Shown here: piece after piece, positions 24,059-50,729 of the stretch
Layout: every line of letters begins with the position of its first letter
Position numbering within the stretch: the first letter of the stretch is position 1
DNA from: a virus
IMG/VR virus record: IMGVR_UViG_3300049215_000063
Location: 1 to 64,000 of that record
DNA length: 64,000 nucleotides
Direction: 5' to 3' (one strand)
The notes under the pieces: model-generated
Seen by the model: only the letters and a program-made list of their open reading frames with translations
The model's database searches: none
Told to the model about the DNA's origin: nothing
Position numbers and translations under genes: made by a program

Positions 24059-25039
24059 ATGAGCGGCGGCATTCAGGCAACGATTACGACCCAGCCGGCC
24101 CCTGGGATCGCTGGCGATTTCTGCGACGCCAATCCGCGGTATTCGTGGGACGCCGGTCCGGGTGGACTGGTCGCGGGTCCAAGTGGACTGGTCATCGGCC
24201 TCTTCGCATGGGTGGCCTATTCCCAGCTTGACGGCGACAGTGCCCCAGCGGCAGCCAATAACTTCGGCTCCGGGCCGGTTACGGGCTTCGTCTCGCGCGC
24301 GCAGCAGGGCCTCATCACGACGTATCTGTCCGATGCGGGCGTGACGATTCCGGCGGGCTTCCAATGCACGCTGATGTCGGGTGGTGGCTTCTGGGCCTAC
24401 AACAGCGGCTCCGGGCAGGCTCTTCCGGGCATGAAGGCCTATGCCAATTTCGTCAACGGCAAGGTCACCTTCGCTGCTTCGGGGAGCCCGACGACCGCCA
24501 GTGCAACTACTTCGACCATCGCCTCTGGCACTGCGGCGACTTTCACGGGGGCGGTCTCCGGCAACGTGCTGACGGTCACCGGTTCGGTCACCAACACGAT
24601 CTATCCCGGCGCCGTTCTTTCGGGAACCAACGTCGCGACCAACACCGTCATCACGGGACAGCTCAGCGGTACGACCGGCGGCGCGGGCACCTATTCGCTG
24701 AATATCGGCGAGCAGAGCATCGCCGCGGAAGCGCTCACCGCGACCCCTTACGTGCTTGATACCACCGGAGGCACCGTCACCGGGTCGATCGTGGTCGGCT
24801 CCGTCCTTCAGTCCGCCGGTGGCACGGCGACGGGCACCGTTGTCGGCATGTCGGTGGTCACCGCGAACCAACCCGCGACCGGAAAATACATCGTGGCTCC
24901 CGCGGGCTTTGGCGCAGCGGGCACCGTGACGAGCGGCACCATCGTGTTGGCGTCAAATATCGAAACCTCATGGTACGCGCGCTCGTCCGGTCTTACCGGC
25001 GAAGTGGTGAAGATCAGCAACGTGCCGGGCATCGGCTAA
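24059..25039 (+). CDS. Decoration/cement-like virion protein with inserted beta domain
   Basis: A 326-residue protein between scaffold and capsid genes, the usual place of head-decoration proteins. The body (NPRYSWDAGPGGLVAGPSGL, NNFGSGPVTGFVSRAQQGLI, AGFQCTLMSGGGFWAYNSGS) resembles phage structural cement proteins. Residues about 160-228 are an inserted glycine-rich domain (TFTGAVSGNVLTVTGSV ... GTTGGAGTYSLN) shared with three other virion proteins in this window. AGGAGAA precedes the ATG. Confidence 0.75.
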   Translation: MSGGIQATITTQPAPGIAGDFCDANPRYSWDAGPGGLVAGPSGLVIGLFAWVAYSQLDGDSAPAAANNFGSGPVTGFVSRAQQGLITTYLSDAGVTIPAGFQCTLMSGGGFWAYNSGSGQALPGMKAYANFVNGKVTFAASGSPTTASATTSTIASGTAATFTGAVSGNVLTVTGSVTNTIYPGAVLSGTNVATNTVITGQLSGTTGGAGTYSLNIGEQSIAAEALTATPYVLDTTGGTVTGSIVVGSVLQSAGGTATGTVVGMSVVTANQPATGKYIVAPAGFGAAGTVTSGTIVLASNIETSWYARSSGLTGEVVKISNVPGIG

Positions 25040-25075
25040 CGCTTGGCTGCGGCTCAAGGATCAGGAGAAACTTTC

Positions 25076-26170
25076 ATGAACCACCAAGAAGCAATTGAGC
25101 TTTGGGCTGCGCATCGCGGGATGCTGGCGCAACGCGGCGTGACGATGACCGATGTGCGGTCCTATGTCCCGGATGAATTCCGGTACGATTTCGGTTTGGC
25201 GATGGATGCGCAGCCGGCGCTCTCCACCACCGATCCGAACTCCGCGGTTCCGGCGATCCTCACCACGATGATCGATCCGAAGGTCTTCAAGGCGTTGTTC
25301 GCGCCGAACAAGGCTACGGTCATCATGGGCGAAGAGCGGCGAGGAACGTGGCTCGACGATACGATCATGCTGCCCGTGACGGAAGCCGCCGGTGAAGTGT
25401 CGAGCTATGGCGACTATGCCGAAAACGGCGCCGTCACCTCGAACACCAACTGGCCCCAGCGTCAGGCCTATTTGTTCCAGGTCGTGAAGCAGTACGGCGA
25501 GCGCGAGCTCGAGCGCGCGGGGCTGGCGCGCATCAATTGGGTTGCGGAACTCGACTATTCGGCAGCCTTGATGCTCAACAAGTTCTCCAACCTGACGTAT
25601 TTCTACGGCGTCGCTGGGCTGCAGAACTATGGGCTGCTCAACGACCCGCACCTCAATGCGTCCCTGACGCCGGCCACCAAAGCCTATGGCGGCACGACGT
25701 GGTACAACAATTCAGGCCAGGTCGCGGCAACTGCCAACGAAATCTTCGCCGACATCGAAAATCTGTTCACGCAGCTGGTCATCCAGACCGCCGGCTCGGT
25801 CAATCGCGAGACACCGATGGTGCTCTCACTGAGCCCGCAGTCCGAAGCGGCGTTTACCACGACCAACAGCTTCAACGTCAACGTCAGCGATCTCATCAAG
25901 AAGAACTTCCCGAATCTCAAGGTGGAGAATGCCGTGCAGTACGGCGTTCTGAGCGCGTCCAATCCGCAAGGGATCGCCGGCGGCAACTTCATGCAGCTGA
26001 TCGCGAAGGAGCTTGACGGCCAGGAAACCGGCTATTGCGGCTTCAACGAGAAAATGCGCGCGCACAAGCTCATTCCGCAGATGTCCTCCTACAAGCAAAA
26101 GGTCAGCGCCGGCACATGGGGCTGCATTCTGCGGATGACGTCCACCATCGCATCAATGCTCGGCATCTGA
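25076..26170 (+). CDS. Major capsid protein (DUF2184 family)
   Basis: A 364-residue protein from ATG 25076 with AGGAGAAA upstream. Features of the family: AILTTMIDPKVFKALFAPNK, TWLDDTIMLPVTEAAGEVSS YGDYAENG, RQAYLFQVVKQYGERELERA GLARINW, ETPMVLSLSPQSEAAFTTTN and HKLIPQMSSYKQKVSAGTWG. It builds the icosahedral shell with an HK97-like fold. Confidence 0.88.
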   Translation: MNHQEAIELWAAHRGMLAQRGVTMTDVRSYVPDEFRYDFGLAMDAQPALSTTDPNSAVPAILTTMIDPKVFKALFAPNKATVIMGEERRGTWLDDTIMLPVTEAAGEVSSYGDYAENGAVTSNTNWPQRQAYLFQVVKQYGERELERAGLARINWVAELDYSAALMLNKFSNLTYFYGVAGLQNYGLLNDPHLNASLTPATKAYGGTTWYNNSGQVAATANEIFADIENLFTQLVIQTAGSVNRETPMVLSLSPQSEAAFTTTNSFNVNVSDLIKKNFPNLKVENAVQYGVLSASNPQGIAGGNFMQLIAKELDGQETGYCGFNEKMRAHKLIPQMSSYKQKVSAGTWGCILRMTSTIASMLGI

Positions 26171-26195
26171 CCGATCGCTCAAGAAGGAAAACACA

Positions 26196-26678
26196 ATGGC
26201 CGCGACTGTCGTGGTAGCCTGCAAACACCCGCCCGGTATCGTCATGCGCGTGTTTGAACGCGAGGAATACGACGTTCCCGTGCTTGGTGGTGGTTCGCGA
26301 AAGGAATCGCGCGCCATCGCAGTGGGCGAACCTGTCAAAATCAATGGGCCGGCGGTCCCATTCGGGCAGACACCATCCTTCGTTATTGCCGGAGGTTATG
26401 CGCTAACGCCGAACGTGCCGGCGGACGTGGCGATGGCCTATATGGAACAGAATAAAAACTCTGCGTTGGTCAAGAACAATCTGATTTTCATTCACGAAAA
26501 GCCCGAATTCGCCCAAAAACAGGCGAGGGAGCAAAAGGCCGTCAAGAGCGGACTTGAGCGTCTTGATGTCGGGATGGTGACCAAAAACGGCCGCGAGGTG
26601 CCGAAAGACCCGCGGTGGCCGGCGCGCGTCAATCCGAACTTGTCAGGAGTTGCGACCGACAAGCGTGATGACACGTAA
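26196..26678 (+). CDS. Hypothetical virion protein (neck region)
   Basis: A 160-residue protein after the capsid gene. Beta-rich first half (VVVACKHPPGIVMRVFEREE YDVPVLGGG, FGQTPSFVIAGGYALTPNVP), helical second half ending in a basic tail. AAGGAA precedes the ATG. Position suggests head completion; family not recognised. Confidence 0.65.
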   Translation: MAATVVVACKHPPGIVMRVFEREEYDVPVLGGGSRKESRAIAVGEPVKINGPAVPFGQTPSFVIAGGYALTPNVPADVAMAYMEQNKNSALVKNNLIFIHEKPEFAQKQAREQKAVKSGLERLDVGMVTKNGREVPKDPRWPARVNPNLSGVATDKRDDT

Positions 26679-26684
26679 ACGATC

Positions 26685-27113
26685 ATGGGTGTCGTTGTCG
26701 CATTCAGTTATCCGAACTGGACGGTTCTGTTCCCTCAGTTCGGTAACGTGAACGAGGCCCAAGTAACGGGGCCGGTTCTGACCGTGGCGCAGCAATATTG
26801 CCGCAATGACGGCGGCGGTCCGGTCAATGATTGCGGCGTCCAGACGCAGATGTTGAATCTCATGGTCGCTCATGTAGCCCAGCTTCTCTATGGGTCCACG
26901 ACGCAGCCCGTGTCGCCGCTGGTCGGACGTATCAGTGGGGCGACCGAAGGGACGGTATCGGTTTCGACCGAATTTCCGACCACGCCATCGAGTGCGTGGT
27001 TTTTGCAAACGCAGTATGGCGCGATGTATTGGCAGATGATCCTGCCCTATCGTCTTGGCCGATATCGACCCAAGATCACACCTCAGCGCCAAGCTGTCGG
27101 TGGCCCGTGGTGA
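26685..27113 (+). CDS. Head-tail adaptor (DUF4054-like)
   Basis: A 142-residue protein: FSYPNWTVLFPQFGNVNEAQ V...LTVAQQYCRNDGGG...QTQMLNLMVAHVAQLLYG, then FLQTQYGAMYWQMILPYRLG RYRP. The order F-x-x-x-F-P-x-F, a helix ending in A-H-x-A-x-L, and a C-terminal Y-G-x-x-Y-W is that of DUF4054 connectors that sit under the portal ring. Confidence 0.75.
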   Translation: MGVVVAFSYPNWTVLFPQFGNVNEAQVTGPVLTVAQQYCRNDGGGPVNDCGVQTQMLNLMVAHVAQLLYGSTTQPVSPLVGRISGATEGTVSVSTEFPTTPSSAWFLQTQYGAMYWQMILPYRLGRYRPKITPQRQAVGGPW

Positions 27114-27117
27114 CTGA

Positions 27118-27564
27118 ATGGCGACCCTCAAGGGCGGCGATAAGCTCGCCGATGTTCTGAAAACGATCGGCGCCAAAGCAAGCAACGCTAAATCAGTCCA
27201 GGTCGGGTTCCTGGAAAACTCGACCTATCCCGACGGCACCAGCGTCCCGATGGTAGCGGCGATCCAGGAATTCGGCGCGCCGAAAGTCGGCATTCCGCCG
27301 CGGCCGTATTTCCGGAACATGATCGCGGCGAAGTCGAAACAATGGCCGAAGGCCACGGCCGAGCTGCTGAAAGACAACGACTATGACGCCGCGAAGACGT
27401 TGGGCCTCGTCGGCGAGGGTGTGAAGGGCCAGTTGCAGCAGTCGATCGTCGACACCAATACGCCACCCAACGCGCCCGCGACCATCGCGCGCAAGGGCGC
27501 TGCGAAGCCGCTGGTCGACAGCGGCCATATGCTCAATTCCATTGATTACCAAGTCAAAACCTGA
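27118..27564 (+). CDS. Neck/tail-completion protein (HK97 gp10-like)
   Basis: A 148-residue basic protein with VQVGFLENSTYPDGTSVPMV AAIQEFGAPKVGIPPRPYFR, a motif found in neck proteins of Siphoviridae and Myoviridae (GFL ... A-x-x-x-E-F-G ... I-P-P-R-P-F). C-terminus PLVDSGHMLNSIDYQV is also typical. It joins the head to the tail tube. Confidence 0.8.
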   Translation: MATLKGGDKLADVLKTIGAKASNAKSVQVGFLENSTYPDGTSVPMVAAIQEFGAPKVGIPPRPYFRNMIAAKSKQWPKATAELLKDNDYDAAKTLGLVGEGVKGQLQQSIVDTNTPPNAPATIARKGAAKPLVDSGHMLNSIDYQVKT

Positions 27565-27582
27565 TGCTCGGGAGATAGCGCG

Positions 27583-28296
27583 ATGAGCGGCACCACCGTT
27601 CTTTTCAGTTCGAAGACCGGCGATATCAACTTTCCGATCACGCCCGCGTCGATCGACAGCATGACGATCGGCGCGACGACGCCGGCGCCGATCACGGGGA
27701 CCAATCTGCACGCCACCGGCACCACGGAATTGGATGGCGCGGTGAGCGGGGCCGGTTTCGTGGCCGCGGTGCAGGCGATCATCGAGGGCGATGCCCCGGC
27801 GGCGCGTTATCTCCCGCTCACGGATGTCAAGACGGCGGCCGGTTTGCCGCTCGCGACGGGAACGGCTGCGACGACGCTTCCGGGTATTGCGCGCACGGCC
27901 GGCACCAGCATGTATCTCACCGGCGCGGCTACGTCTGGTGCGACGCCCGCGACCACGAACATGCTGTGGGAATTCGATCTGCCCACGACCTATGTCGCGG
28001 GTGCGGCGATTCCGGTTGGGGTCAATTGCGTGGTGCCGGTAGCGACCGATGTGACGGCGGCTTCCACCACCATGACCGTTTTGGCTTACACCGAAGTCAA
28101 CGGCGTTGAAACCGCATTGACGGTTTCCGCGGCCCAGCAAATCCCCATCACGACGGCGGCGACCTTGACGTTTTCGATTACCGGCACGGGTCTCGTTCCG
28201 GGCGCGCACATCGTATTGGAATTGACCATGCTGGTTACGACGACCTCGGGCGGCGCGTCGAGCGGGCAGGTCAACAGCGTGGGCATCACGGCGTGA
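27583..28296 (+). CDS. Beta-rich virion protein of unknown role
   Basis: A 237-residue threonine/alanine-rich protein, almost entirely predicted beta strand (AGTSMYLTGAATSGATPATT NMLWEFDLPTTYVAGAAIPV). It lacks the G-T-Y-x-V repeat domain found in other virion proteins here. The position suggests a fibre or decoration attached at the neck. GTGA overlap with the next gene. Confidence 0.6.
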   Translation: MSGTTVLFSSKTGDINFPITPASIDSMTIGATTPAPITGTNLHATGTTELDGAVSGAGFVAAVQAIIEGDAPAARYLPLTDVKTAAGLPLATGTAATTLPGIARTAGTSMYLTGAATSGATPATTNMLWEFDLPTTYVAGAAIPVGVNCVVPVATDVTAASTTMTVLAYTEVNGVETALTVSAAQQIPITTAATLTFSITGTGLVPGAHIVLELTMLVTTTSGGASSGQVNSVGITA

Positions 28297-28679
28297 ACCT
28301 TCACGGCATCGTCTCGGGCGCCATAAGCGCGGTCAATCCCTTCGTCGCCGCGACGGTGCAGCGTTCGACCGGCTACACCACGAATTCCGATGGTTCGCGC
28401 GTTCCGACCTATACGACGTTCTCTGTGTCGGTGCAGATGCAGGCGCTCACCTACACCGATCTCAGAGAACTCGACGCCCTGAACATCACCGGCAAGCGGC
28501 GCAAGATTTATCTCAGCGGCGATGTCGAAGGCATCATCCGCGCCGATCAGCGCGGCGGCGATCTGATCGTATTTCCGACCGGAACGTTGCCGGAAGGCAA
28601 TACCTGGCTTGCCGCTTACGTGCTGGAAAACTGGCCGGATTGGGTGTCGGTTGCGATCACGCTGCAGGACGGGAGTTGA
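28293..28679 (+). CDS. Uncharacterised neck/tail protein
   Basis: A 128-residue protein from GTG 28293. VQRSTGYTTNSDGSRVPTYT, VSVQMQALTYTDLRELDALN, GKRRKIYLSGDVEGIIRADQ RGGDLI and GNTWLAAYVLENWPDWVSVA belong to a recurrent but unnamed family in phages with DUF3383 sheaths. Probably head-tail joining. Confidence 0.7.
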   Translation: MNLHGIVSGAISAVNPFVAATVQRSTGYTTNSDGSRVPTYTTFSVSVQMQALTYTDLRELDALNITGKRRKIYLSGDVEGIIRADQRGGDLIVFPTGTLPEGNTWLAAYVLENWPDWVSVAITLQDGS

Positions 28680-28682
28680 CGA

Positions 28683-28967
28683 ATGTTCAGCCAATCCTAC
28701 GACCCGCTCGGTTATCAGCAACTTGCGGCGAACTCGACGGCACAGGCGTTGACCGTTCCAGCCGGCGCGAACTGCGCGCTGTTCGCGGTCGAGACGGCGA
28801 ACGTGCGCTGGCGAGATGATGGCGTTGCGCCGACGACATCAGCAGGTATGCCGATCGTCGCCGGTGCCGCTCCGTTCTTCTACAGTGGCACGCTCTCGGC
28901 CCTGCAATTCATCGCCGAATCCGGCAGTCCGCTGGTCAACGTATCGTACTATCGCCCGGCCGGATGA
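28683..28967 (+). CDS. Small beta-rich virion protein
   Basis: A 94-residue protein. ALTVPAGANCALFAVETANV RWRDDGVAPTTSAGMPIVAG, then PFFYSGTLSALQFIAESGSP is a recurrent phage motif (R-W/Y-R-D-D-G ... P-T-x-x-x-G-M). Small decoration- or fibre-like protein; exact place in the virion unknown. Confidence 0.7.
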   Translation: MFSQSYDPLGYQQLAANSTAQALTVPAGANCALFAVETANVRWRDDGVAPTTSAGMPIVAGAAPFFYSGTLSALQFIAESGSPLVNVSYYRPAG

Positions 28968-28970
28968 TGC

Positions 28971-29708
28971 ATGCCGTCGCCCGCTCCGACGCAATCGCAG
29001 ATCCAGACGGCGCTGCGGTCTTTTCTGTTGAACGTATTACCGTCTGGCGTCGAAGTCATCGAGGGCCAGGACAATCGCGTTCCGGAGCCGCAGGGCGGTG
29101 ATTTCGTTGTCATGACGCCGATCCGGCGCGCGCGGCTTTCGACCAACATCGATCAGCAAGCGGACACGCTTTTCACGGGATCGATTGCCGGAACGACATT
29201 GGCCGTCAGCGCAATCACGTTCGGTACGATCGCTGTCGGTGATCCGGTCTATGGCGTCGATGTTGCATCGGGCACCGAAGTCACCGCGCTCGGAACTGGA
29301 ACGGGCGGAACTGGCACCTATACCGTCGCGCCGTCGCAAACCGTAGCGAGCGAGGCGATGGCGGCCGGCACGATGCAGGTATTGCAGCCGACCGATGTGG
29401 TGTTCCAGCTCGACTTTCACAGCGCCAATGTCGGGGATTCGTCCGATATGGCGCAGACGATAGCGACGCTGTTTCGCGATCCATATGCGACCGAATTCTT
29501 TTCCGCGCTGACACCGCCGATCGATGTAGCGCCGTTGTATGTGGACGATCCGCGGCAGATGCCGTTCATGAACGCGGAACAACAATTCGAGACACGCTGG
29601 ATCGTCGATGTGCACCTTGAGGCAAATCAGGTCGTAAGCGTGGGCCAGCAGTACGCCGATAGCGTCGATATCGGGCTTGTGAGCGTCACCGCGGCCTATC
29701 CGAACTGA
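28971..29708 (+). CDS. Tail terminator-like protein with inserted beta domain
   Basis: A 245-residue protein. Ends match the phage neck-terminator family: [40 protein letters not shown] at the start and [40 protein letters not shown] at the end. Between them, residues about 66-132 are the mobile domain ([20 protein letters not shown] ... GTGTYTV ... SQTVAS). The insertion falls in a loop and leaves the terminator fold intact. Position before the sheath fits tail completion. Confidence 0.75.
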
Positions 29709-29756
29709 TCAATCCGCAAATACTCAGCACGCCTCGCGCATGAGGATTCAACGCGC

Positions 29757-31694
29757 ATGACAATACCCGCCAATCAGATCGTCAATGTCGTGCCAAGCGT
29801 CATCTCCGCCGGCGGCACCGGGCCGAACGGCGTCGGCTTGATGCTGACGACAAGCACGCGCATTCCGCTCGGCACAGTGCAAAGCTTCGCCAATCAGCAA
29901 GCCGTGGCGGCCTATTTTGGGGCCGGTTCCTATCACGCGGCCGAAGCGGGCATTTATTTCACCGGCTTCAATGGGGCGACCATCCAGCCCTCGACGCTGT
30001 TGATGGCGCAGTACAATCAAAATGCTGTGGCGGCCTACATCCGCGGCGGGAATGTCTCGACGCTCACGCTGGCGCAATTACAGGCGATTTCCGGATCATT
30101 GGATATCGTCATTGACGGCTATGCCCGCAACGCCGCGTCCGTCAATCTGTCCGCGGCGACCAGCTTCTCCAACGCGGCGACGATCATCGCCTCGGCGCTC
30201 AATACCGCCGATCCGACCGAAGCCACCGTCACGGCCGCGATCGGGGCGACCTTCACCGGGTCGCAATCCGGCACCAGTCTGACGACGACCTCCGTCACCG
30301 GCCTGATCTCGATCGGCGATACGGTTGCAGGTACGGGCGTGGCGTCGGGGACCACGATCGTTTCGCAGACCTCGGGCACCACCGGCGGCGCCGGCGTCTA
30401 TGTGACCAGCAAGTCCGGGACGGCATCGTCGGCGTCATGCACGGCGAGCAGCAACGTCCTCGACGTGACGGTAGTTTCCGGCACCATCGAACCCGGCCAA
30501 TACGTCACCGGCGCCGGCGTCACCTCCGCGGTGATCTTGTCGCAGGCCGGCGGCACCACGGGCGGCGTCGGCACTTACGTCATCGCGGGATCGCCGCAGC
30601 AGGTCGCCAGCGAATCGATGACGATCGAGGCAACGCCGGTCGCTGTGACTTACGATTCAATTTCCGGCGCTTTTGTCATCACGTCCGGCATCGTTGGTCC
30701 CAATTCCACCGCGGCATTCGCGACCGGGACGATCGCGGCGACGCTGCTGCTGACTTCGGCGACCGGGGCTGTGCTTTCGCAAGGCGCTGCCGCAGCGACG
30801 CCAGCCGCTTTGATGACGGCGCTGATTGCGGTCAATTCGAATTGGGCCAACTTCATGACCCTGTTCGATCCCGATAACGGAACTGGCAATACGGTCAAAC
30901 AGGCGTTCGCGGCGTGGAAGAACACCGCGTTGGGCGGTAACAAGTTCGGCTATTTCTGCTGGGATCCAGATGAAAGCCCGGCAACCTCGAGCGACGCCGC
31001 CGGAAGCCTTGGGCGCATTCTTGCCGGTAATAACGATTCCGGCACGCTTTTGATATGGGAGGGCGGCGCGACGGGGGATACCGGACTATGCGCATTCGCG
31101 CTCGGTGTTGCGGCGTCGACGAATTTCCAGCAGACCAATGGGCGCGTCAATTACGCCGGACGATCCCAGAGCGGGCTAGTGGCGGATGTGTCCGATCCGG
31201 TCACGTCGCAGAATCTATTGGCCAATGGCTATAGCTTCTACGGCGCCTATGGCGCAGCGAATCCAAATTTTATCTGGTTGCAAAACGGCGCAATCACTGG
31301 CCCGTTCCAATGGACCGACAGCTATGAGATTCAGATCTGGCTCAATGGCCAGTTTCAGGTCGCCTTGCTCACGCTCCTTCAAAATACCTTGTCGATTCCG
31401 TTCAGTACCGCGGGGGCCGCACTCATCACCGGTGCCTGTCAATCGGTGATCCAGGCGGGTTTGAACTTCCGAGCGTTCGGTCCGGATACGCTTGACGCCA
31501 CCGAAATCGCCGAAGTCAACAACGCCGCTGGGCTTAATATCGCGCCGACGCTGCAGAGTCAGGGCTATTACCTTCAGGTCAATGTCCCAGGCGCGACGGT
31601 GCGCGCCTCGCGCGGACCATGGCCGATCACGTTCTGGTATATCGATCAGGGCAGCGTGCAGTCGATCGACCTTTCCAGCGTTCTCGTTCAATAA
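29757..31694 (+). CDS. Tail sheath protein (DUF3383) with two inserted beta domains
   Basis: A 645-residue protein, long for the family (about 450-500) because residues 163-290 hold two copies of the glycine-rich domain. Sheath features: N-terminal VNVVPSVISAGGTGPNGVGL MLTTSTRIPLG, AYFGAGSYHAAEAGIYFTGF, and C-terminal SYEIQIWLNGQFQVALLTLL, TAGAALITGACQSVIQAGLN, GYYLQVNVPGATVRASRGPW. It forms the contractile outer tail, so inserted domains would decorate its surface. Confidence 0.88.
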   Translation: MTIPANQIVNVVPSVISAGGTGPNGVGLMLTTSTRIPLGTVQSFANQQAVAAYFGAGSYHAAEAGIYFTGFNGATIQPSTLLMAQYNQNAVAAYIRGGNVSTLTLAQLQAISGSLDIVIDGYARNAASVNLSAATSFSNAATIIASALNTADPTEATVTAAIGATFTGSQSGTSLTTTSVTGLISIGDTVAGTGVASGTTIVSQTSGTTGGAGVYVTSKSGTASSASCTASSNVLDVTVVSGTIEPGQYVTGAGVTSAVILSQAGGTTGGVGTYVIAGSPQQVASESMTIEATPVAVTYDSISGAFVITSGIVGPNSTAAFATGTIAATLLLTSATGAVLSQGAAAATPAALMTALIAVNSNWANFMTLFDPDNGTGNTVKQAFAAWKNTALGGNKFGYFCWDPDESPATSSDAAGSLGRILAGNNDSGTLLIWEGGATGDTGLCAFALGVAASTNFQQTNGRVNYAGRSQSGLVADVSDPVTSQNLLANGYSFYGAYGAANPNFIWLQNGAITGPFQWTDSYEIQIWLNGQFQVALLTLLQNTLSIPFSTAGAALITGACQSVIQAGLNFRAFGPDTLDATEIAEVNNAAGLNIAPTLQSQGYYLQVNVPGATVRASRGPWPITFWYIDQGSVQSIDLSSVLVQ

Positions 31695-31706
31695 CAGGGG
31701 CACGTC

Positions 31707-32144
31707 ATGGGGCTCGATCTCACCGCCGCGAATTGCGTCATTACGCTGACGCTTTCTCCGCTGTTCACCACGCCGCAGCAGCTTCAAGGTTTCGCTGTGG
31801 ATGATGTCTACACCACGCCGGAAATTGCGCCCACGGAAACCAAGATGGGGGTCGACGGCGTGCTCTCTGGCGGCATGGTGTTCGTTCCGGTGGAACAAGA
31901 AATCATGCTGCAGGCGAATTCGCCGTCGATCGGTTTTTTTGATCAATGGTATCTCTATCAAATATCCGGCCTGTCGTCGTATTCGGCGAACGGCACCACG
32001 ACGCTGCCGGGTCTAGGCAAACAATGGATCATGACCAACGGTTTCTTGGTTGGCTATGTCCCCCTCCCGCCGGCCAAGAAGACGCTGGACGCCCAACACT
32101 TCCGTATTCGCTGGAATCTGTCCACGCCGGTTCCGATCGGCTGA
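31707..32144 (+). CDS. Tail tube protein
   Basis: A 145-residue protein directly after the sheath gene. ITLTLSPLFTTPQQLQGFAV DDVYTTPEIAPTETKMGVDG, MVFVPVEQEIMLQANSPSIG and QWIMTNGFLVGYVPLPPAKK agree with the tube family that accompanies DUF3383 sheaths. Forms the inner channel. Confidence 0.82.
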   Translation: MGLDLTAANCVITLTLSPLFTTPQQLQGFAVDDVYTTPEIAPTETKMGVDGVLSGGMVFVPVEQEIMLQANSPSIGFFDQWYLYQISGLSSYSANGTTTLPGLGKQWIMTNGFLVGYVPLPPAKKTLDAQHFRIRWNLSTPVPIG

Positions 32145-32148
32145 TTCC

Positions 32149-32616
32149 ATGCGTAAAAGCGAAATCGTCGCTGTGCCCGAATGGGGCGGCCGGGATGAGG
32201 GGAAGCTGTTCAAGATCACCGAATGGGACGCCTTCCGCGCCGAGAAATGGGCGTGGCGCATGGGCCTCGCCCTCAAGGGCACCAACGGCGAGTTGCCGGA
32301 CGCTATCGCCCGGCTCGGCATGGTCGGCATCGCGGTTCGGACGATCAATGCGATTCTCTCGGCGGATGTCGATCCTGCAAAGCTGATGCCGCTGCTCGAT
32401 GAGATGATGACCTGCGTCAAGATCGTTCGCGATCCGAGCGTGAGAGACCCGGCCACGGGCCAACCCTTGGCCGTTGATTTGGTCGGACAGGACGATATCG
32501 AGGAAATCAGGACGGTCGGATGGCTCAGGTCGGAGGTCCTGAGAATACATACAAATTTTTCCGCGACCGCGGCGCTGTCCGCGTTGATCTCGGTTATTCG
32601 GGAGTCAGTCTCTTAG
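32149..32616 (+). CDS. Tail assembly chaperone, upstream frame
   Basis: A 155-residue protein. VVAVPEWGGRDEGKLFKITE WDAFRAEKWAWRMGLAL is the typical beginning of the first chaperone in phages with this tube and sheath. It binds the tape measure during tail assembly. A slippery AAATTTT at 32553-32559 lies 19 codons before its stop and would move ribosomes into the frame ending at 32804. Confidence 0.85.
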   Translation: MRKSEIVAVPEWGGRDEGKLFKITEWDAFRAEKWAWRMGLALKGTNGELPDAIARLGMVGIAVRTINAILSADVDPAKLMPLLDEMMTCVKIVRDPSVRDPATGQPLAVDLVGQDDIEEIRTVGWLRSEVLRIHTNFSATAALSALISVIRESVS

Positions 32617-32804
32617 ATTATCCGAACGTCCCGCCATCGATCGGTATGGTGGTATCGCGCGATCTGAAAATGATCGAGCCGTTGAACGCGACCATCAGTG
32701 TCGAAGAGCTGCATGATCTCTTGGAAATAATCGTGATCGACGGCCATAACGCGCGGCAGATTGCGAAGGCCGAAGCGGCGCGGCGGAGACGAGGCCAGCA
32801 ATGA
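32520..32804 (+). CDS. Tail assembly chaperone, frameshift extension
   Basis: The -1 frame relative to the upstream chaperone. From the slippery site it reads FRDRGAVRVDLGYSGVSLLD, VPPSIGMVVSRDLKMIEPLN, ISVEELHDLLEIIVIDGHNA RQIAKAEAARRRR; the segment S-V-E-E-L-H-D-L-L-E-I ... A-x-x-A-x-A-A-R-R is typical of gpT-like chaperone extensions. An ATG at 32520 exists but lacks a good ribosome site, so I read the product as a fusion (gpG-GT arrangement). Confidence 0.8.
   Translation: MAQVGGPENTYKFFRDRGAVRVDLGYSGVSLLDYPNVPPSIGMVVSRDLKMIEPLNATISVEELHDLLEIIVIDGHNARQIAKAEAARRRRGQQ
32553..32559 (+). promoter_or_regulatory. -1 frameshift slippery site A AAT TTT
   Basis: The heptamer AAATTTT is aligned with the upstream frame as ACA AAT TTT, giving canonical X XXY YYZ. 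Shifting back one base joins ...RIHTNF to FRDRGAVRV... of the second frame. Such shifts in tail chaperone genes are conserved across tailed phages. Confidence 0.85.
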
Positions 32805-34474
32805 CGACGGTCATCGGCTCGCTCGTTGTTGAACTCGCGATTGACGCCCGCCAACTGAACGAAGGCACGCGCCAGGCGCTTGAGAATTTCAAGCGCACGC
32901 AGGAAGAAGCCAAGAAAGGCGGCGGTCAGGTCGAGGCCGAAGGCAAGCGGGTCATTAATTATCTGGACTCGCTCAAACGCGCCGCGCTCGGGGTGACGGG
33001 CATTCTCTTGGGCGGCATGGGATTAAAGGAATTCACCGGATATCTCACCAATCTCGACGCCGCGACCGCGCGCGTCGCCAAGACAATGGATGTCTCGGTG
33101 CGCGAACTATCCGCGTGGCAGGGCGCGGCGGAACAGACCGGCGGCTCCGCCGAAGGCATGACCGGGACGCTGCAAAATCTCTCGAGCGAGGTGAACAAGT
33201 TTGTTCTGACCGGGCAGTCCGGATTGCTCGCGGTTCTCACCCCGTTGGGCATCGGACTCTACAACACCAACGGACAACTTAAAACGTCGACCGAACTCTT
33301 TCTCGAGCTTGCCGACGCGGTGCAGGGCATGGACCCGGCGCGGGCAAGAGCGATGCTGTCCATGCTCGGCATGGATCAGAGTGCGATCAATCTTGCGATC
33401 CAGGGCCGTCATGCGATCGAAGGATATTTGGACGCGGCGAAAGCGGCTGGTCTGACGACCGCGCAAAGTGCGGAGGACGCCGCCGAATATCAGCGGCAGT
33501 TGGCGCTGCTCAATCTGACGGCGACCAATACCGGCCGCACGCTGCTGACGACGTTTGCGCCGGCGCTCGACATTGCGCTCGTCACGTTGCGGCATCTGGC
33601 GGACGGTAATATCTGGGGCGCGATCGGGCACGGTTTCGCCGCGCCGTTCAAGCAATTTGTCGCCGTCATCGACGACATGAATGCCAAGCTTTACGACGCC
33701 GCGGCCCTGGTCGCGGATTTCTTCGGCAATAAGGATAAGGCGGCGGAGGATAGGGCCAAGGCATCAGAAGCCAGACAAAGCGCACAGTCATGGCGCACCG
33801 GAGCGGAACAAAGCCGTCAGGCCTCGCTCGCAGATCAGGGCCTCGTGGGCCATCTTGCCGCCGGCCAGACCGCGCCGCTCGAAACTCTGGAAGCGACGAT
33901 GGGCTCGCGCGGCGACCGCAACAACAATCCCGGCAACATCAAAATGGGGCCGGTGGCGCGAAAGTTCGGTGCGGTCAGTCAGGACGATCAGGGCCATGCG
34001 ATTTTCCCGACGTGGCAGGCCGGTAACGCCGCGCAAGCCGAATTGCTGCGGCGGAGCTATTCCGGCCTGACGCTCGCCGAGATCGGCCAGAAATACGCTG
34101 AGGATCCGAATTGGGCATCAGGCGTCGCGCAATACAGCGGGTTTTCGCTGAGTCAGGTGCCCGATCTTTCCGACCCGGCGACCATGGGGCGCCTGCAGGC
34201 TGCAATCCGGCGCCAGGAGGGCACGCATGCCCCGGCGGGGTTCCCTACGGGCTCTTTGGGCATGCCGATCGGCGCGCCGGCCGCGGCGACGCTGCAGCAT
34301 TCCAGCATGATCGACAACAGCCGGGGCAACACCACGCATATGGTGAAAGTGGAGACCGGCGACATTCACGTCAGCGCCCCGAATGCGCGCACCAATGGCG
34401 ACATAGGGGAAGCGATCGGGGCGTCGTTGCAGCGGCAAGCGGCGCTGGCGTCATGGAATACCGGGCTGGTGTAA
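32801..34474 (+). CDS. Tape measure protein with lysozyme-like segment
   Basis: A 557-residue protein. Residues 1-60 are coiled coil (ELAIDARQLNEGTRQALENF), followed by a hydrophobic patch (ALGVTGILLGGMGLKEF) and further helices. Residues about 365-460 (RGDRNNNPGNIKMGPVARKF, GHAIFPTWQAGNAAQAELLR, YSGLTLAEIGQKYAEDPNWA) are a transglycosylase/lysozyme-like module often carried by virion proteins to open peptidoglycan. At about 0.15 nm per residue the tail would be short, near 80 nm; this is a rule-of-thumb estimate. Confidence 0.82.
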   Translation: MTTVIGSLVVELAIDARQLNEGTRQALENFKRTQEEAKKGGGQVEAEGKRVINYLDSLKRAALGVTGILLGGMGLKEFTGYLTNLDAATARVAKTMDVSVRELSAWQGAAEQTGGSAEGMTGTLQNLSSEVNKFVLTGQSGLLAVLTPLGIGLYNTNGQLKTSTELFLELADAVQGMDPARARAMLSMLGMDQSAINLAIQGRHAIEGYLDAAKAAGLTTAQSAEDAAEYQRQLALLNLTATNTGRTLLTTFAPALDIALVTLRHLADGNIWGAIGHGFAAPFKQFVAVIDDMNAKLYDAAALVADFFGNKDKAAEDRAKASEARQSAQSWRTGAEQSRQASLADQGLVGHLAAGQTAPLETLEATMGSRGDRNNNPGNIKMGPVARKFGAVSQDDQGHAIFPTWQAGNAAQAELLRRSYSGLTLAEIGQKYAEDPNWASGVAQYSGFSLSQVPDLSDPATMGRLQAAIRRQEGTHAPAGFPTGSLGMPIGAPAAATLQHSSMIDNSRGNTTHMVKVETGDIHVSAPNARTNGDIGEAIGASLQRQAALASWNTGLV

Positions 34475-34475
34475 A

Positions 34476-35279
34476 ATGCCGAACGTCCCCAACGTCCCCG
34501 GCGTGCCGGCGCTGTCGAGCTACGCCACCAACAATACATCGCTGTTGATTACCGACGCGGCGATCGTTGTTGGGGCGTTTCTGCCACCGCCATGGGGAAT
34601 TTACTATCAGGGCCAACCCGTATTGCTGCCCGCCAGCATTGCGTCGCAGCTCGCGTCGTCGGCCTTGGCGCCGTTCGCGCAGGTTGCCTCGTTGCTTGGA
34701 TTTCCCAATCTGTTGCCGGTGTTTGCGTCCACTCTGGAATTCGACTTCGATCAAGAATGGGCCATCGCCGATACACAGCAAGAGCAGGGCGCGTTCCAGT
34801 CCTATGACAAGGTTCAACTGCCGTTCGATCTGCGTACCCGGATTTGCTGCGGCGGCGCGGTGGGGCCGCGCCAGGCATTCCTCAATGCCATTTTCGCCAT
34901 CGCCGGAGGGTCGCCGCTCGGATCGTCCTCGTTGATCACATCGGCGCTGTCATCGGTTGCATCCGCCGCGGGATTGAGTTCGATCGGGGCCTCACTGACG
35001 GGCGGCATTCTGTCGGGGACACTAACACCGCCGCTGTTCGATATCGTGACGCCGGAAGGCACCTATGCGAGTTGCAGCGCGCGGCGGGTGTCATTCTCGC
35101 GGCGGTCGGACGAGGGCGCAACCCTGATCGCGGTCGATCTGTGGTGGAAGCAGATCAGGCAGACCTCGACGGCGTCGTTTTCCAACGCCCAGATACCCGG
35201 AATCGCCGGGCAGCAAAGCATCAGCAATGTGCAGCCGCAAACGCCGAACGTCACCTTTCCGAGCGGAAGCCTGATGTGA
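34476..35279 (+). CDS. Baseplate/tail-tip protein
   Basis: A 267-residue protein between tape measure and baseplate plug. N-terminus NNTSLLITDAAIVVGAFLPP PWGIYYQGQPVLLP, central FDFDQEWAIADTQQEQGAFQ SYDKVQLPFDLRTRICCGGA, then C-terminal FDIVTPEGTYASCSARRVSF. Similar proteins occur at this position in related myoviruses and probably cap the tube at the baseplate. No catalytic motif seen. Confidence 0.7.
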   Translation: MPNVPNVPGVPALSSYATNNTSLLITDAAIVVGAFLPPPWGIYYQGQPVLLPASIASQLASSALAPFAQVASLLGFPNLLPVFASTLEFDFDQEWAIADTQQEQGAFQSYDKVQLPFDLRTRICCGGAVGPRQAFLNAIFAIAGGSPLGSSSLITSALSSVASAAGLSSIGASLTGGILSGTLTPPLFDIVTPEGTYASCSARRVSFSRRSDEGATLIAVDLWWKQIRQTSTASFSNAQIPGIAGQQSISNVQPQTPNVTFPSGSLM

Positions 35280-35280
35280 C

Positions 35281-35595
35281 ATGCCGCAGATCGTGCCGTT
35301 GCAGGCGATCCCGAACCAGACGTTGCAGGTCCAGCTCAACAGTCAGAACTGCACGCTGAACGTCCAGCAATTCGCATTCGGATTGTTCATCACGGTCTAT
35401 GTCGGGCCATCCCTGATCATTCCGACGGTGCTCTGTCAGAATCTCAATCGCATCATCCGTGATGCCTATTTGGGGTTTGTCGGCGATCTGGCATTTCTGG
35501 ACACGCAGGGTACGTCGAATCCGGTCTATACCGGGCTCGGGAGCAACAGCGCGGCGCGCTATCAGTTGTTCTATCTGTTTCCGGCTGATCTGTGA
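35281..35595 (+). CDS. Baseplate plug family protein
   Basis: A 104-residue protein: VPLQAIPNQTLQVQLNSQNC TLNVQQFAFGLFITVYVGPS, VLCQNLNRIIRDAYLGFVGD LAFLDTQG, ARYQLFYLFPADL. The pattern (P-N-Q-x-x-x-V-x-L-x-x-Q ... G-D-L-x-F-x-D-T-Q-G ... R-Y-x-L-x-Y) is that of phage baseplate plug proteins. Confidence 0.82.
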   Translation: MPQIVPLQAIPNQTLQVQLNSQNCTLNVQQFAFGLFITVYVGPSLIIPTVLCQNLNRIIRDAYLGFVGDLAFLDTQGTSNPVYTGLGSNSAARYQLFYLFPADL

Positions 35596-36575
35596 TGGCG
35601 TCGTTCACGCAAAAGCTGATCACCGTCACGGTGCAGCTCGCCAATAATCCCGGCACCAATCAGCCCAACACCTTCGCCGAAGGATCCGTTCCCGGACAGG
35701 CGGCGGGTTCGAATACGGTCACGCTGTCGAATTCCCGCACCAGTGTGCGCATCCGCAATTCCGGCACGTTTCTGCAAACGGCGACGGTCAAGGTCTGGGG
35801 CCTGACGCCAAGCCTGATGAATCAACTCTCGACGCTCGGCATCGTCTATAACATCGTCGCCAAGAACCTGATCACGATCAACGCGGGAGACAACATCAAC
35901 GGCATGCCGGCAGCGTTTTCCGGCACGATCATGAACGCCTATGCCGACTATCGTATGATGCCGGATGTGCCGTTCGTGTTCGAATGCAATGGGCTGTTGG
36001 CCGGCGGCATCGCTTCGGTGCCGGCCGCGAGCTTTTCGGGCGCGACGGACGTGGCAACTATCATGGCCGGGCTCGCACGTCAGGCGGGACTCGGATTTCA
36101 GAATTCCGGCGTTTCCGTTCAACTATCGAACCCTTATTTTCCAGGTTCGATCAATCAACAGATCGACGCATGTGCGCGGCACGCCGGTATCAGTTACGGC
36201 ATCGTCAATGCGACGCTGAATATCTGGCCGAAGGGCGGGTCGCAAGCCGCCGGCCTTTCCGTGCCGATCATATCTCCGGCGACGGGCATGATCTCGTCGC
36301 CGCAATTGACGCAGCAGGGCATCGTCGTCGATACGCTGTTCAACGCGCTGATCGCGTATGGTGGTCCAGTACAGGTACAAAGCGACGTGCTCTCCGGGGT
36401 GCTCTCCGCGCAATCCGTGGCGAACTCGACGTTTAAAACTCCGGCGAACGGTGTGTGGGCAGTCTATAAGCTCGATCACGCCTTGGATTCGCTGGTCCGT
36501 AATGGGCTGTGGCAGTCCGCGGTCTATGCCTACAACCCGAATTATCCCAAACCCGTGATTGCGGCGGTCGGATAG
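35595..36575 (+). CDS. Baseplate hub protein
   Basis: A 326-residue protein from ATG 35595. VTVQLANNPGTNQPNTFAEG, VWGLTPSLMNQLSTLGI and FSGTIMNAYADYRMMPDVPF are the beta-barrel parts of a gpD/gp27-like hub; INQQIDACARHAGISYGIVN ATLNIWPKGG fits the second barrel. Hubs trimerise below the tube and carry the spike encoded next. Confidence 0.78.
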   Translation: MASFTQKLITVTVQLANNPGTNQPNTFAEGSVPGQAAGSNTVTLSNSRTSVRIRNSGTFLQTATVKVWGLTPSLMNQLSTLGIVYNIVAKNLITINAGDNINGMPAAFSGTIMNAYADYRMMPDVPFVFECNGLLAGGIASVPAASFSGATDVATIMAGLARQAGLGFQNSGVSVQLSNPYFPGSINQQIDACARHAGISYGIVNATLNIWPKGGSQAAGLSVPIISPATGMISSPQLTQQGIVVDTLFNALIAYGGPVQVQSDVLSGVLSAQSVANSTFKTPANGVWAVYKLDHALDSLVRNGLWQSAVYAYNPNYPKPVIAAVG

Positions 36576-37268
36576 ATGCCGTCCGGCTACGGGCAACAAA
36601 CTCCGGAGGACAGCAACAGCGATTTGGGGGCGGTTGCGTTTATCGTGCGCCAGATGATGGCGCAGATGGACACGATGAAGCTGGTGCAGGTCGTCGCCGT
36701 GCACGGCGGGGCTGGTGCGATTGCCGCCGCCGGGACGGTGGATGTGCTCCCGTTGGTCAATCAGATCGACGGCGCGACGCCGCCCAATCCGACGCCGCAC
36801 GGCACGGTCTATGGCATCCCTTGGTCACGCCTTACCGGCGGGCAGAACGCCGTGATCTGCGATCCGCAAGCCAACGACATCGGTTATGTGGTCGCGGCCG
36901 ATCGCGACATCTCGGTCCTCAAGACGACATTCGCGCAGGGCAATCCCGGCTCACAACGGCGGTTCAATATCGCCGACGGCATCTACACCTCGCTCGCGCT
37001 CAATGTCGCGCCCAATCAGTATCTCGTTTTCACATCGACCGGCGTCCGTCTGGTCGATCAATTCAACAACTCAATTGCCTTGGCGTCCAGCGGCGTGACC
37101 ATAAGCGTTGCCGGTTCTGTCATCGGTCAATTCACGTCAACGGGCCTCGCCGTCACCGGCAAGATCATATCGACGGGTGACATGGTGGCGGGTTTGATCA
37201 GCGTTCAGAACCATCTCACCACGGGCGTGCAATCAGGGTCCGAGTTGTCAGGGCCGCCGACAGGATGA
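36576..37268 (+). CDS. Membrane-puncturing spike (Gp138-like)
   Basis: A 230-residue protein. Helical start (AFIVRQMMAQMDTMKLVQVV), OB-fold (GAIAAAGTVDVLPLVNQIDG...NAVICDPQANDIGYVVAADR) and a beta-helical needle of short strands (VTISVAGSVIGQFTSTGLAV TGKIISTGDMVAG), ending SGPPTG. Gp138/gpV spikes pierce the outer membrane. Stop and start of hub and spike genes are directly adjacent. Confidence 0.82.
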   Translation: MPSGYGQQTPEDSNSDLGAVAFIVRQMMAQMDTMKLVQVVAVHGGAGAIAAAGTVDVLPLVNQIDGATPPNPTPHGTVYGIPWSRLTGGQNAVICDPQANDIGYVVAADRDISVLKTTFAQGNPGSQRRFNIADGIYTSLALNVAPNQYLVFTSTGVRLVDQFNNSIALASSGVTISVAGSVIGQFTSTGLAVTGKIISTGDMVAGLISVQNHLTTGVQSGSELSGPPTG

Positions 37269-37274
37269 CCATCC

Positions 37275-37661
37275 ATGGCATCGACCTTGTTGCTCGATAC
37301 TGTGGCCTGGGATCTGGTGCTCGATGCCAACGTCAACATCGCGGTCGCGGCTGAACCGTATTCGTTGGCGCAAGACGCGGCGTCAGCCATTCGCACCTTC
37401 GCCGGCGAGTGTTTCTGGGATACGACGGTCGGCGTCCCGTATTTGACGCAGATATTCGGTCAATCGCCGCCGCCCCTGACGCAGATCAAACAAGATTTCA
37501 TCAATGCCGCCTTGACCGTGCCGGACGTGGCGTCGGCGCAAGTCTTCATTTCTGGCATTACCAAGCGCGTGCTGAGCGGGCAGGTGCAGGTGGTTTCGGC
37601 TTCGACCGGACAGGTGTCGGCGGCGAACTTTGCCGTGGTCAATCCGCAAGGTGCCGGTTGA
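37275..37661 (+). CDS. Baseplate wedge protein (gp25/gpW-like)
   Basis: A 128-residue protein. LAQDAASAIRTFAGECFWDT TVGVPYLTQIFGQSPPPLTQ and QDFINAALTVPDVASAQVFI match the gp25-like lysozyme-fold wedge in contractile tails, where it initiates sheath attachment. Confidence 0.82.
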   Translation: MASTLLLDTVAWDLVLDANVNIAVAAEPYSLAQDAASAIRTFAGECFWDTTVGVPYLTQIFGQSPPPLTQIKQDFINAALTVPDVASAQVFISGITKRVLSGQVQVVSASTGQVSAANFAVVNPQGAG

Positions 37662-37664
37662 ACG

Positions 37665-39551
37665 ATGGCGAATATCGGCACCACCAACGTCCCGGCGATC
37701 GATTGGAGCTCGGGCGGTCCGATCGTCCCGTCCGGTCCCGCGGTCCTCACGGGCGTGCAGCAGGATTATAACGTCGCGTTCGCGGTGACGTTCAATTGGA
37801 ATCAGAATACGCCGCAAGGCCAATTGGCGGGTTCCACGGCCGCCGTCGTCAACAACGCCAATCAGGAAATCGCCTGGATCGCGACGCAGATCGATCCGGC
37901 CTACTCGACCGGGCGGTTCCAGGATGCGATCGGAAGGATAAGTCCGGGCGGGACGTTCGCCCGCATTGCGTCGGCGCCGACCACGCTGCAGATTGAATGT
38001 TTCGGCGGCACCAATACGCCGTTGCCGGCGGGGCCGGCGAGCTACGCAACGATCGTCGATCCAGCAAACAACGTCTATCAATGCACGCAGGCCGGCACGA
38101 TTCCGGCGAGCGGGTCGATCGTTCTGTCGTTCGCGGCGTTGACCTATGGTCCCATTCCCGTCCCGGAGACGGTCGCGCCCTATCAGGCAATCTCGGGCTG
38201 GGACAGCGCCATCGTCGTCTCCGGCGTGCAGGGACAGAACGTCGAGACTTCGCAACAGTTCGAGTTGCGGCGCGAACAGTCCGTCAGCGCGAATTCCGCC
38301 AACAACAACGCAGCGATGCTGGGCGTCATTCTCAATGTGCCCGCGGTGCTCGACGCCTACGTGACGGACAATCCGAGCAATTCGCCGGCGACGATCGGCG
38401 GCGTGTCGATTCCCGCCAATACCCAATACATCGCCGTGACCGGCGGCACGGCGACCGCGGTGGCTCAAGCCATCTTTTCCAAGAAGGTGCCGGGCATTCC
38501 GCTTTACAGCGGCAACAACAGCGAGACGGTCCAGGACACCAATTCGGGCTATTCGCCGCCCTATCCGAGCTACACCATCACCTGGGAAACGCCGGCGGCC
38601 CTGGCGATTTTGTTCGCGGTCGTTGTCGCGTCCAGCCCGCAGGTGCCGAGCACCGCCAACACACAGATTCAGAATGCGATTCTCAACGCGTTCAACGGCG
38701 GCGGTGCGGTCGTCACCGGCTCGATCACGGGAACGGTCCTCACCGTCTCGTTTGTGTCGCAAGGCACGCTCACCGTTGGGCAGAGCTTGTCCGGCGTGGG
38801 CATCACGGCCGGCACGACGATATCCGGATTAGGAACGGGGAGTGGCGGCACCGGCACTTACATCGTATCGTCGAGTCAGACCGTAGCCTCGACCTCGATC
38901 GTTGCCGGATCAGCAACCAACAATCCGATTCCGCCGCGTGCCCGTATCGGATCGTCGATCTATGCGGCGCAATATGCCGCGGTCATCACGGCATTAGGTT
39001 CATGGGCGGCGATCAAGTCGCTGCAAATCGGGTCGAACAACACGCCCGGCGCCGTCGTCAAGGGTTATGTCAACGGCACGACGCTCACCGTCGTATCGGT
39101 CACTTCGGGCACGATTGCGGTTGGGCAATGGCTCACCGGCGCCGATAGCGTCAATGGCATCGTTGCTGGCACGACGATTACCGCCTTCGGCACGGGAAGC
39201 GGCGGGACCGGGACCTATACCGTCAGCAATACCCAAACCGTCGGCGCAAGCTTCACCGGTACGGCGTCGGGCGCCAATCTCACGGCTTCGGCCGTCACCG
39301 GGTATATCGCACCAGGTGACATCATCGCAGGAACCGGCGTGCCGAGCGGGACGACGATCCTGTCGCAAACCTCGGGCACCGCCGGCGGCGCCGGCGTCTA
39401 TGTCACGTCTGTGTCGACAACCGCCTCATCGGCGGCGATCACGGCAAACGTCGCCGTCACCGCCACGGCGGCCAATCAGAGTCTTGTTGCGGTCAATATC
39501 AATCAGGAACCGACGCTGATCGCCGCGGGTATCGCGGTCGCGGTGTCGTAA
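37665..39551 (+). CDS. Baseplate J-like protein with three inserted beta domains
   Basis: A 628-residue protein. The J core is seen at residues 180-320 ([76 protein letters not shown]) and about 421-460 ([20 protein letters not shown]). Residues 348-414, 462-527 and 528-592 are copies of the glycine-rich domain, so J is interrupted at two points. J builds the baseplate rim; the extra domains probably face outward. Confidence 0.85.
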
Positions 39552-40198
39552 TGGGCGTTCCGTATCCGCACCCGAATCCGGTTCCCGGTTCCAATGCCAT
39601 CGGATCGTTCACGATCGGCGTCTCTCCGATCGGCGATATTCCGTCGTTCGATGTCTGGACGACGATGCTGTCGCAATATGCGAACAGTCCGATCATTACC
39701 CAACTCGTTTCGAACATGGCGCAATACGTCGATCAGACGCAGAACCTCGACGCGTTTTTCGACAATGTCTGGAACATCGGCACGGCCGTCGGTTCGGCAC
39801 TCGATCTGTGGGGACGGATCGTCGGCGTCGGCCGGGTGCTGCAATTGCCGAGCAATACCTCGTATCTCGGTTTCGAAGAGGCAAGTTCATGGCAGACATT
39901 CGGGCAGGCGCCGTTCTATTCCAACGAGGCCGTCAGCAGTAATTATTTGCTGTCCGACGCAGCATTTCGCACGCTGATTCTCGCCAAGGCGCTGTTCAAC
40001 GTCAGTGACGGTTCGATACCTGCGACCAATCAAATTCTGCTCAATCTGTTCGGGCAGGGTTATGTGACGGACGGCCTCAATCTGACCATGACCTATACGT
40101 TTCCGACCGCTTTGACGCCGGTGCAATACGCCATCGTTCTCAATTCCGGCGTGCTGCCGCGCCCGCCCGGCGTTTCGACATCCGTGGTGCAGGGGTGA
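39551..40198 (+). CDS. Baseplate protein (DUF2612)
   Basis: A 215-residue protein. MLSQYANSPIITQLVSNMAQ YVDQTQNLDAFFDNVWNIGT AVGSALDLWGRIVGVGRVL, then AFRTLILAKALFNVSDGSIP and DGLNLTMTYTFPTALTPVQY match DUF2612, functionally like P2 gpI: it links the baseplate to tail fibres. One-base overlap with gene J. Confidence 0.85.
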   Translation: MGVPYPHPNPVPGSNAIGSFTIGVSPIGDIPSFDVWTTMLSQYANSPIITQLVSNMAQYVDQTQNLDAFFDNVWNIGTAVGSALDLWGRIVGVGRVLQLPSNTSYLGFEEASSWQTFGQAPFYSNEAVSSNYLLSDAAFRTLILAKALFNVSDGSIPATNQILLNLFGQGYVTDGLNLTMTYTFPTALTPVQYAIVLNSGVLPRPPGVSTSVVQG

Positions 40199-40200
40199 TC

Positions 40201-42202: not shown

Positions 42203-42224
42203 AAGCAAACCGTTCGCGCTGGAA

Positions 42225-50381: not shown

Positions 50382-50729
50382 ATGAAGGGACGACGCATTC
50401 CGATCACGGCCAAGACCGAGCAAGAGTTTAGCGCGAGCGACGACCGCTCGGTTGTGGGCCTGCTCGAGCAGCCGGGAGACTACTGCGGCCCTATCCTTGG
50501 CTACGCGGGCGATCGCCCATGCGTGTTTTTTCTCAAGCCGAATGCTCGCGACCCGAATGCGCCACGCCGCGCACGAAGCTGGCAGTACGTCGCGTCGCCC
50601 CCTCACACTTTCAGAGAGGAACCAAACGGCACGCTGACAATCACGCCGTCTATTAGTGATAAGGCCGGGCAGTCGGAAAGTGATGGCTGGCACGGCTACC
50701 TCACCGGAGGCGAATGGCACAAGGTCTAA
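50382..50729 (+). CDS. DUF6527-like small protein
   Basis: A 115-residue protein. The C-terminal half (CVFFLKPNARDPNAPRRARS WQYV, EEPNGTLTITPSISDK...SDGWHGYLTGGEW) matches a zinc-ribbon-like family with the S-x-G-W-H-G-Y/F-L-T-x-G motif. GAGAGG upstream. Function unknown. Confidence 0.6.
   Translation: MKGRRIPITAKTEQEFSASDDRSVVGLLEQPGDYCGPILGYAGDRPCVFFLKPNARDPNAPRRARSWQYVASPPHTFREEPNGTLTITPSISDKAGQSESDGWHGYLTGGEWHKV

Follow-up and report, generated by a model that had tools for sequence, protein, structure and literature searches.

We analysed a window of 64,000 nucleotides, i.e. positions 1 to 64,000 of the 66,146-base IMG/VR virus record IMGVR_UViG_3300049215_000063, in which a threonine- and glycine-rich module of approximately 65 residues is inserted into four different virion proteins: the capsid decoration protein (one copy), the tail terminator (one), the tail sheath (two) and baseplate protein J (three). 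Among environmental viruses, a dozen or more unrelated virion proteins contain the module, and it is under purifying selection, so that it is maintained, neither drifting nor diversifying fast. The window contains a myovirus late operon with genes for terminase, portal, protease, decoration protein, major head protein, terminator, sheath and baseplate. The module-bearing genes and the copies within them are given below in window coordinates.

24059..25039, plus strand: capsid decoration (minor head) protein, XM1 gp53-like, with one module (PF23982, E 3.2e-18; phrog_2122, E 1.2e-31)
24542..24742, plus strand: module copy 1, decoration protein residues 162-228 (cross-host profile, E 3.8e-13)
24743..24949, plus strand: probable degenerate eighth module, decoration protein residues 229-297 (alignment with the intact second module of L010, L096 and L098)
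28971..29708, plus strand: tail terminator protein, a module host (PF23961 in two stretches, E 1.8e-23; phrog_1876, E 1.1e-42)
29172..29366, plus strand: module copy 2, terminator residues 68-132, structure predicted (profile, E 1.3e-22)
29757..31694, plus strand: tail sheath protein (DUF3383, E217 gp31-like), with two modules (PF11863 in two stretches, E 1.2e-98; phrog_205)
30252..30446, plus strand: module copy 3, sheath, first of the tandem (profile, E 2.5e-10)
30363..30403, plus strand: 41-nucleotide tract identical at 39 of 41 positions to 39363-39403, a candidate short gene-conversion tract (synonymous resampling)
30441..30626, plus strand: module copy 4, sheath, second of the tandem (profile, E 1.5e-8)
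37665..39551, plus strand: baseplate J (wedge) protein, E217 gp44-like, with three modules (phrog_6, E 1.5e-26; E217 gp44, E 7.6e-12)
38712..38906, plus strand: module copy 5, J, model position approximately 340 (profile, E 1.3e-21; site map)
39057..39251, plus strand: module copy 6, J, first of the tandem at model position approximately 379 (profile, E 1.6e-17)
39252..39446, plus strand: module copy 7, J, second of the tandem (profile, E 3.9e-11)

The four gene names used in the original prediction, which was made from the DNA sequence alone, agree with these Pfam and PHROG assignments. The seven copies that it placed in the four proteins are real. For a profile hidden Markov model (HMM), 154 modules were taken from unrelated host proteins of other viruses; the sequences of the window and homologues of its four host proteins were left out to avoid circularity. 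This cross-host profile recovered exactly the seven copies (E 1.5e-8 to 1.3e-22) and produced no match among 46,300 shuffled open reading frames (ORFs) of the window, so chance or low-complexity similarity was ruled out. An eighth, degenerate module, overlooked in the original prediction, probably follows directly after the copy in the decoration protein. The putative remnant (residues 229-297) obtained no significant score with the cross-host profile; it shares 30-35% identity with the second modules of L010, L096 and L098 and 28% with that of L009, which itself scores weakly, and the decoration proteins of relatives carry two tandem modules.

The claim that the modules are insertions was upheld by comparison with homologues of the host proteins in 50,697 cultured phage records (INPHARED), among which 183 sheath, 142 J, 38 terminator and 88 decoration proteins were found. 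No sheath, J or decoration record in this collection covered at least 80% of the query at one place, and the six terminator matches that reach 97% coverage correspond to proteins of approximately 170 residues that lack the module. In residue-level alignments with Pantoea phage PA-1, Aeromonas phage AsaM-56, Bcep781 and Acetobacter phage phiAO1, the insertion sites of the proteins compared were cleanly empty; in the phiAO1 sheath a larger stretch around the insertion site is missing. The copy in the decoration protein is located C-terminally, between two core strands, at a site that is empty in loci L100, L101 and L105. Among IMG/VR relatives, modules recur at alternative sites, i.e. at model positions 136, 233-239, 337-340 and 374-380 in the J family, 28 and 67-71 in the terminator, 147-152 in the sheath (one to three modules in tandem) and 134-143 in the decoration protein. 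The number of copies at one site varies from zero to three among homologues, with cultured relatives lacking the module, while 73 of the 78 IMG/VR sheath homologues retrieved, a set ranked by similarity to a module-bearing query, carry one to three copies.

The opposite view, in which every host family has these strands as an integral part and their sequences have converged, could draw on the way the modules are embedded without linkers and, in the sheath model, prolong a host beta strand (residues 156-182). It is refuted by the empty sites in cultured homologues of all four proteins; moreover, the Pfam matches to the terminator and the sheath are split in two and interrupted at the modules, the site differs within one family, and a profile derived from unrelated hosts detects the modules. 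We therefore give it almost no credence. An intein or homing element was likewise rejected, as the inserts of the window consist of modules only and no splicing or endonuclease Pfam match was found in them.

AlphaFold, applied to 60 modules with the terminator copy as the predicted structure, gave an all-beta model with a predicted local distance difference test score (pLDDT) of 96.2 and a predicted template modelling score (pTM) of 0.83, and the module is confidently predicted to be an autonomously folding all-beta domain. A Foldseek search of PDB structures gave no match at E 1e-3. The nearest solved structure was chain 8eci_1 from a capsid entry of Arthrobacter phage Bridgette (E 0.014, prob 1.00, query-normalised template modelling score (TMq) 0.70). 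It is the only solved one with a similar fold, but it shares 28% identity with the module and forms a separate chain of 124 residues, not an insertion. Dimeric capsid cement proteins have been reported for this phage (PMC13033339), and 8eci_1 is presumably one of them. In BFVD, fold matches with TMq 0.83-0.93 included segments of an HK97 major capsid protein, of a P22 gp10 protein, of a side tail fibre and of a pectate lyase protein, among others. Two collagen-repeat proteins of the giant virus Indivirus ILV1 (A0A1V0SCQ2 and A0A1V0SDM6) also matched the fold there (TMq 0.80-0.88, 46-48% identity).

The immunoglobulin (Ig) fold was rejected, with antibody Fab chains reaching prob ≤0.02 and TMq ≤0.28 in Foldseek and no Pfam Ig family found on phage modules. 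The module was not classed as Ig-like because this fold test failed, despite its similar placement. No Pfam or NCBIfam model covers the module, no curated carbohydrate-binding or BACON match was found, and PADLOC returned no match; within the terms searched, the motif strings were not found in the literature and the nearest papers are silent on the module. The closure proteins of L019, L030 and L065 contain variant modules with a shorter hairpin, SGSGSTWTLN, in place of GTGGTGTY, and such variants hint at a wider superfamily.

The distribution of the module was determined by using one copy as a query against IMG/VR and a genome collection, supplemented with host-protein alignments. The single-copy query retrieved 292 IMG/VR stretches and eight bacterial genome loci. 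In total, 578 modules in 355 ORFs were assigned by masked comparison to approximately 20 host clusters, which is an upper estimate of distinct families, since some may be distant members of one family. The identified clusters are mostly virion proteins and comprise, beyond the four hosts of the window, podovirus adaptors, P22-gp10-like closure proteins, a second sheath family, a capsid protein, a head protein and tail fibres. By tblastn the module is nearly absent from cultured phages, the sole match spanning only its first half. Limited sensitivity probably accounts for some of this near-absence, because BLAST masks low-complexity sequence and the only match is of half length; the comparison with cultured phages therefore rests on host proteins without the insert. 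One module is carried by the sheath of a prophage of Paraburkholderia bannensis NBRC 103871 (L092), and the tail fibre of Sinorhizobium phage phi3LM21 has one at residues approximately 555-626. In bacteria the module is rare (in one class, two genomes out of 274 have it, one of these being the centre), and it is also carried by very long bacterial ORFs with PKD, Ig_7 or FG-GAP repeats. Two Synechococcus lacustris ORFs of more than 5,000 residues (L286, 3824-19999, and L288, 1119-17954) contain three to four modules each, and one of them has an FG-GAP repeat; both are predicted to be surface-like proteins. A module-bearing protein annotated as "portal" (L103, MW202520.1, 5740-6744) adjoins a "phage stabilization protein"; the label seems wrong, and its neighbours and the position of the module point to a head-tail adaptor.

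The original prediction also held that copies had been exchanged recently between genes. The identity on which this was based (39 of 41 bases, 30363-30403 with 39363-39403) is correct as stated, whereas the recency found little support. For most modules the nearest relative in another virus resides in the same host protein (65-100% in the large classes, 17% by chance), and inheritance is therefore considered mainly vertical. DNA runs of at least 20 nucleotides were shared between modules of different genes in 6 of 553 pairs within one virus versus none of 1635 pairs between viruses (p 2.6e-4). In synonymous resampling, 12 of 5000 replicates were as good as the 41-nucleotide tract, which is of modest significance before correction for 21 pairs. 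The module tree implies 58 host changes, against a minimum of 19 and a mean of 124.8 for shuffled labels, although it is poorly resolved, with only six starred branches. Nearest neighbours, shared tracts, resampling and the tree together reject recent wholesale exchange in this genome and point to old, mainly vertically inherited copies with occasional movement. The ratio of nonsynonymous to synonymous substitution rates (dN/dS) in modules, where pairs suffice (J, sheath, adaptor and closure proteins), is 0.07-0.20, near the values of the host cores though up to twice as high in J.

The modules are composed of 31% Ser/Thr and 18% Gly, with Lys and Arg together below 1%. Charged residues make up 3.0% of modules versus 11% of host cores, and Phe, Trp, Tyr and His 4.3% versus 9.9%. 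Judged from sequence, this composition is unlike that of ordinary carbohydrate-binding modules; with regard to the glycan binding that the original prediction put forward as a possibility, it argues against an aromatic platform and would fit a neutral hydroxyl surface.

Whether the insertions lie in outward loops, a check proposed in the original prediction, could be followed best in the sheath. There the insertion maps to residues 160-162 of E217 gp31 and hence, as argued from residue numbers, falls inside the outer flexible domain. In the Pa193 paper, sheath residues 91-210 form a flexible domain outside the core (PMC11042391), and according to the E217 paper domain A is absent from the pyocin sheath (PMC10329688). 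The sheath model (pLDDT 88.5) has the E217 sheath (8env_A) as its top match, with a target-normalised template modelling score (TMt) of 0.75, so that the E217 core fold is kept, and the two modules are confidently folded in it. The modules of the decoration, terminator and J proteins may be exposed as well; in XM1, trimers of the decoration protein gp53 sit on the outside of the capsid (PMC10457771).

We propose that the module is a promiscuous accessory domain spread across the virion surface and conferring weak adhesion, a role suggested by analogy and one that we favour while judging its chances to be somewhat short of even. Singly or in tandem, it has been grafted into many unrelated virion proteins, at loops that link core beta strands, and leaves the core fold undisturbed; most copies have then been inherited along with the host gene. 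Occasionally copies may reach new sites or genes, probably via short homologous or illegitimate recombination and without a dedicated mobile element. Capsid, neck, sheath and baseplate would display seven or more copies for each gene set and hundreds per particle, the latter because E217 has 204 sheath subunits (PMC10329688). Neutral, Thr/Ser-covered domains could make many weak contacts of low specificity with cell-envelope polymers or with the environmental matrix, and these would lengthen the residence of the phage near its hosts, as proposed for phage Ig-like domains. Several points weigh against such a role: aromatic residues are few and charge is nearly nil, so there is no classical sugar platform; the modules evolve slowly and show no sign of receptor-driven diversification; the fold of the Bridgette chain would suit cementing equally well; and the exposure of the modules on the decoration, terminator and J proteins is putative.

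We rank cementing second, after weak adhesion, and shielding third. Were the module a cementing domain, neighbouring copies would touch and stiffen capsid, neck, sheath and baseplate, and the particle would survive soil or freshwater conditions. The origin of the nearest solved fold in a capsid entry speaks for this, as do the mostly high-copy, assembled nature of the host proteins, a purifying selection approximately as strong as in the core, and the proposal that extra sheath domains have stabilization as one of their roles (PMC9230969). However, close relatives function without the module, the number of copies at one site ranges from zero to three, and lattice cementing is implausible for tail fibres and for giant bacterial surface-like ORFs, all of which carry it; we regard cementing as a serious but rather unlikely explanation. 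The low charge and the abundance of Ser, Thr and Gly would also be expected of a passive neutral shield or spacer, i.e. a non-ionic, hydroxyl-rich coat without a specific partner that prevents sticking to wrong surfaces or hides the particle. In that case, folding alone would have to account for the near-invariant residues (T38 and the G-GG-G-Y motif), and we consider a shield improbable. Finally, a harmless module might move by recombination while the phage gains nothing, as the many unrelated hosts and sites, the degenerate remnant in the decoration protein and the rare tracts shared within genomes would allow. Such selfish or neutral spread is already disfavoured, and in our view very unlikely, in the face of the low dN/dS, the long vertical inheritance at fixed sites and the retention of one to three copies by most of the sheath homologues retrieved from IMG/VR.

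More broadly, the weak-adhesion reading can be extended to a new, widespread and promiscuous family of virion-surface domains, distinct from Ig-like domains, which would coat particles from head to fibre with a non-ionic Thr/Ser face and act as a whole-virion layer for adhesion or towards the environment in uncultivated tailed phages and, by structure match, in Indivirus ILV1. We advance this extended version tentatively, as a possibility that we hold with appreciable doubt.

Several other ORFs of the window were distinguished. An ORF within the late operon, oriented oppositely (21437-22090, minus strand), encodes zinc-ribbon pairs and an HNH-like motif (HHGDRNRRNNNLDNL...CPNCH) and is, as read from the sequence, possibly a homing endonuclease. 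Three ORFs (5738-7138, 10437-12116 and 50656-51762) match DNA methyltransferase PHROGs. The ORF at 40195-41673, likely encoding a fibre or tail-tip protein, contains two pairs of 30-nucleotide tandem repeats, at 41315-41374 (97%) and 41527-41586 (90%). A Gly/Thr/Ser-rich ORF of approximately 1,181 residues (42216-45761) had no match in Pfam or PHROG.

Accessory beta domains of phage virions have for twenty years been discussed mainly as Ig-like domains, and the Ig-like domains of tailed phages are reportedly the subject of Fraser et al. 2006. Here a second, apparently unrelated fold performs the same evolutionary trick; environmental viruses commonly carry it, neither Pfam nor NCBIfam has a model of it, and a single virus has it in four or five different proteins. 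As contractile-tailed relatives vary in the presence, number and site of the module, they offer a natural comparison for the role of the domain, and the insertion sites show which loops of capsid, terminator, sheath and baseplate proteins tolerate additional sequence. Annotation, too, would profit from a domain model, since unrelated proteins match a "tail fiber" family of PHROGs through the module alone. Two PHROGs, phrog_21413 and phrog_38233, include one module each (positions approximately 395-465 of 595 and 554-625 of 896, respectively), but they are whole-protein families of unknown or tail-fibre function in which the module is neither defined nor named.

Like the Ig-like domains of phages, exemplified by Hoc (PMC10385173) and described as extra domains of sheath proteins (PMC9230969), the module is a small beta domain present in unrelated structural proteins outside the conserved core, and the Ig-like ones are thought to be weakly adhesive. 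It differs from them in its fold, in its Gly/Thr-rich composition and in being nearly uncharged. The domain mosaicism described by Smug et al. 2023 (PMC10684548) likewise involves homologous fragments common to otherwise unrelated phage proteins; that study emphasises fibres, spikes, endolysins and polymerases, and the word "sheath" is absent from its main text, whereas the module occurs from the head and neck through sheath and baseplate to the fibres, mostly in uncultivated viruses. A parallel in position is the insertion domain (InD) of the XM1 sheath, which is also a foreign domain in the outer part of a sheath of the same contractile-tail kind; it resembles D3 of the flagellar cap and is described as unique to XM1, with no sharing across proteins reported (PMC10457771), while the module recurs across the proteins of the virion.

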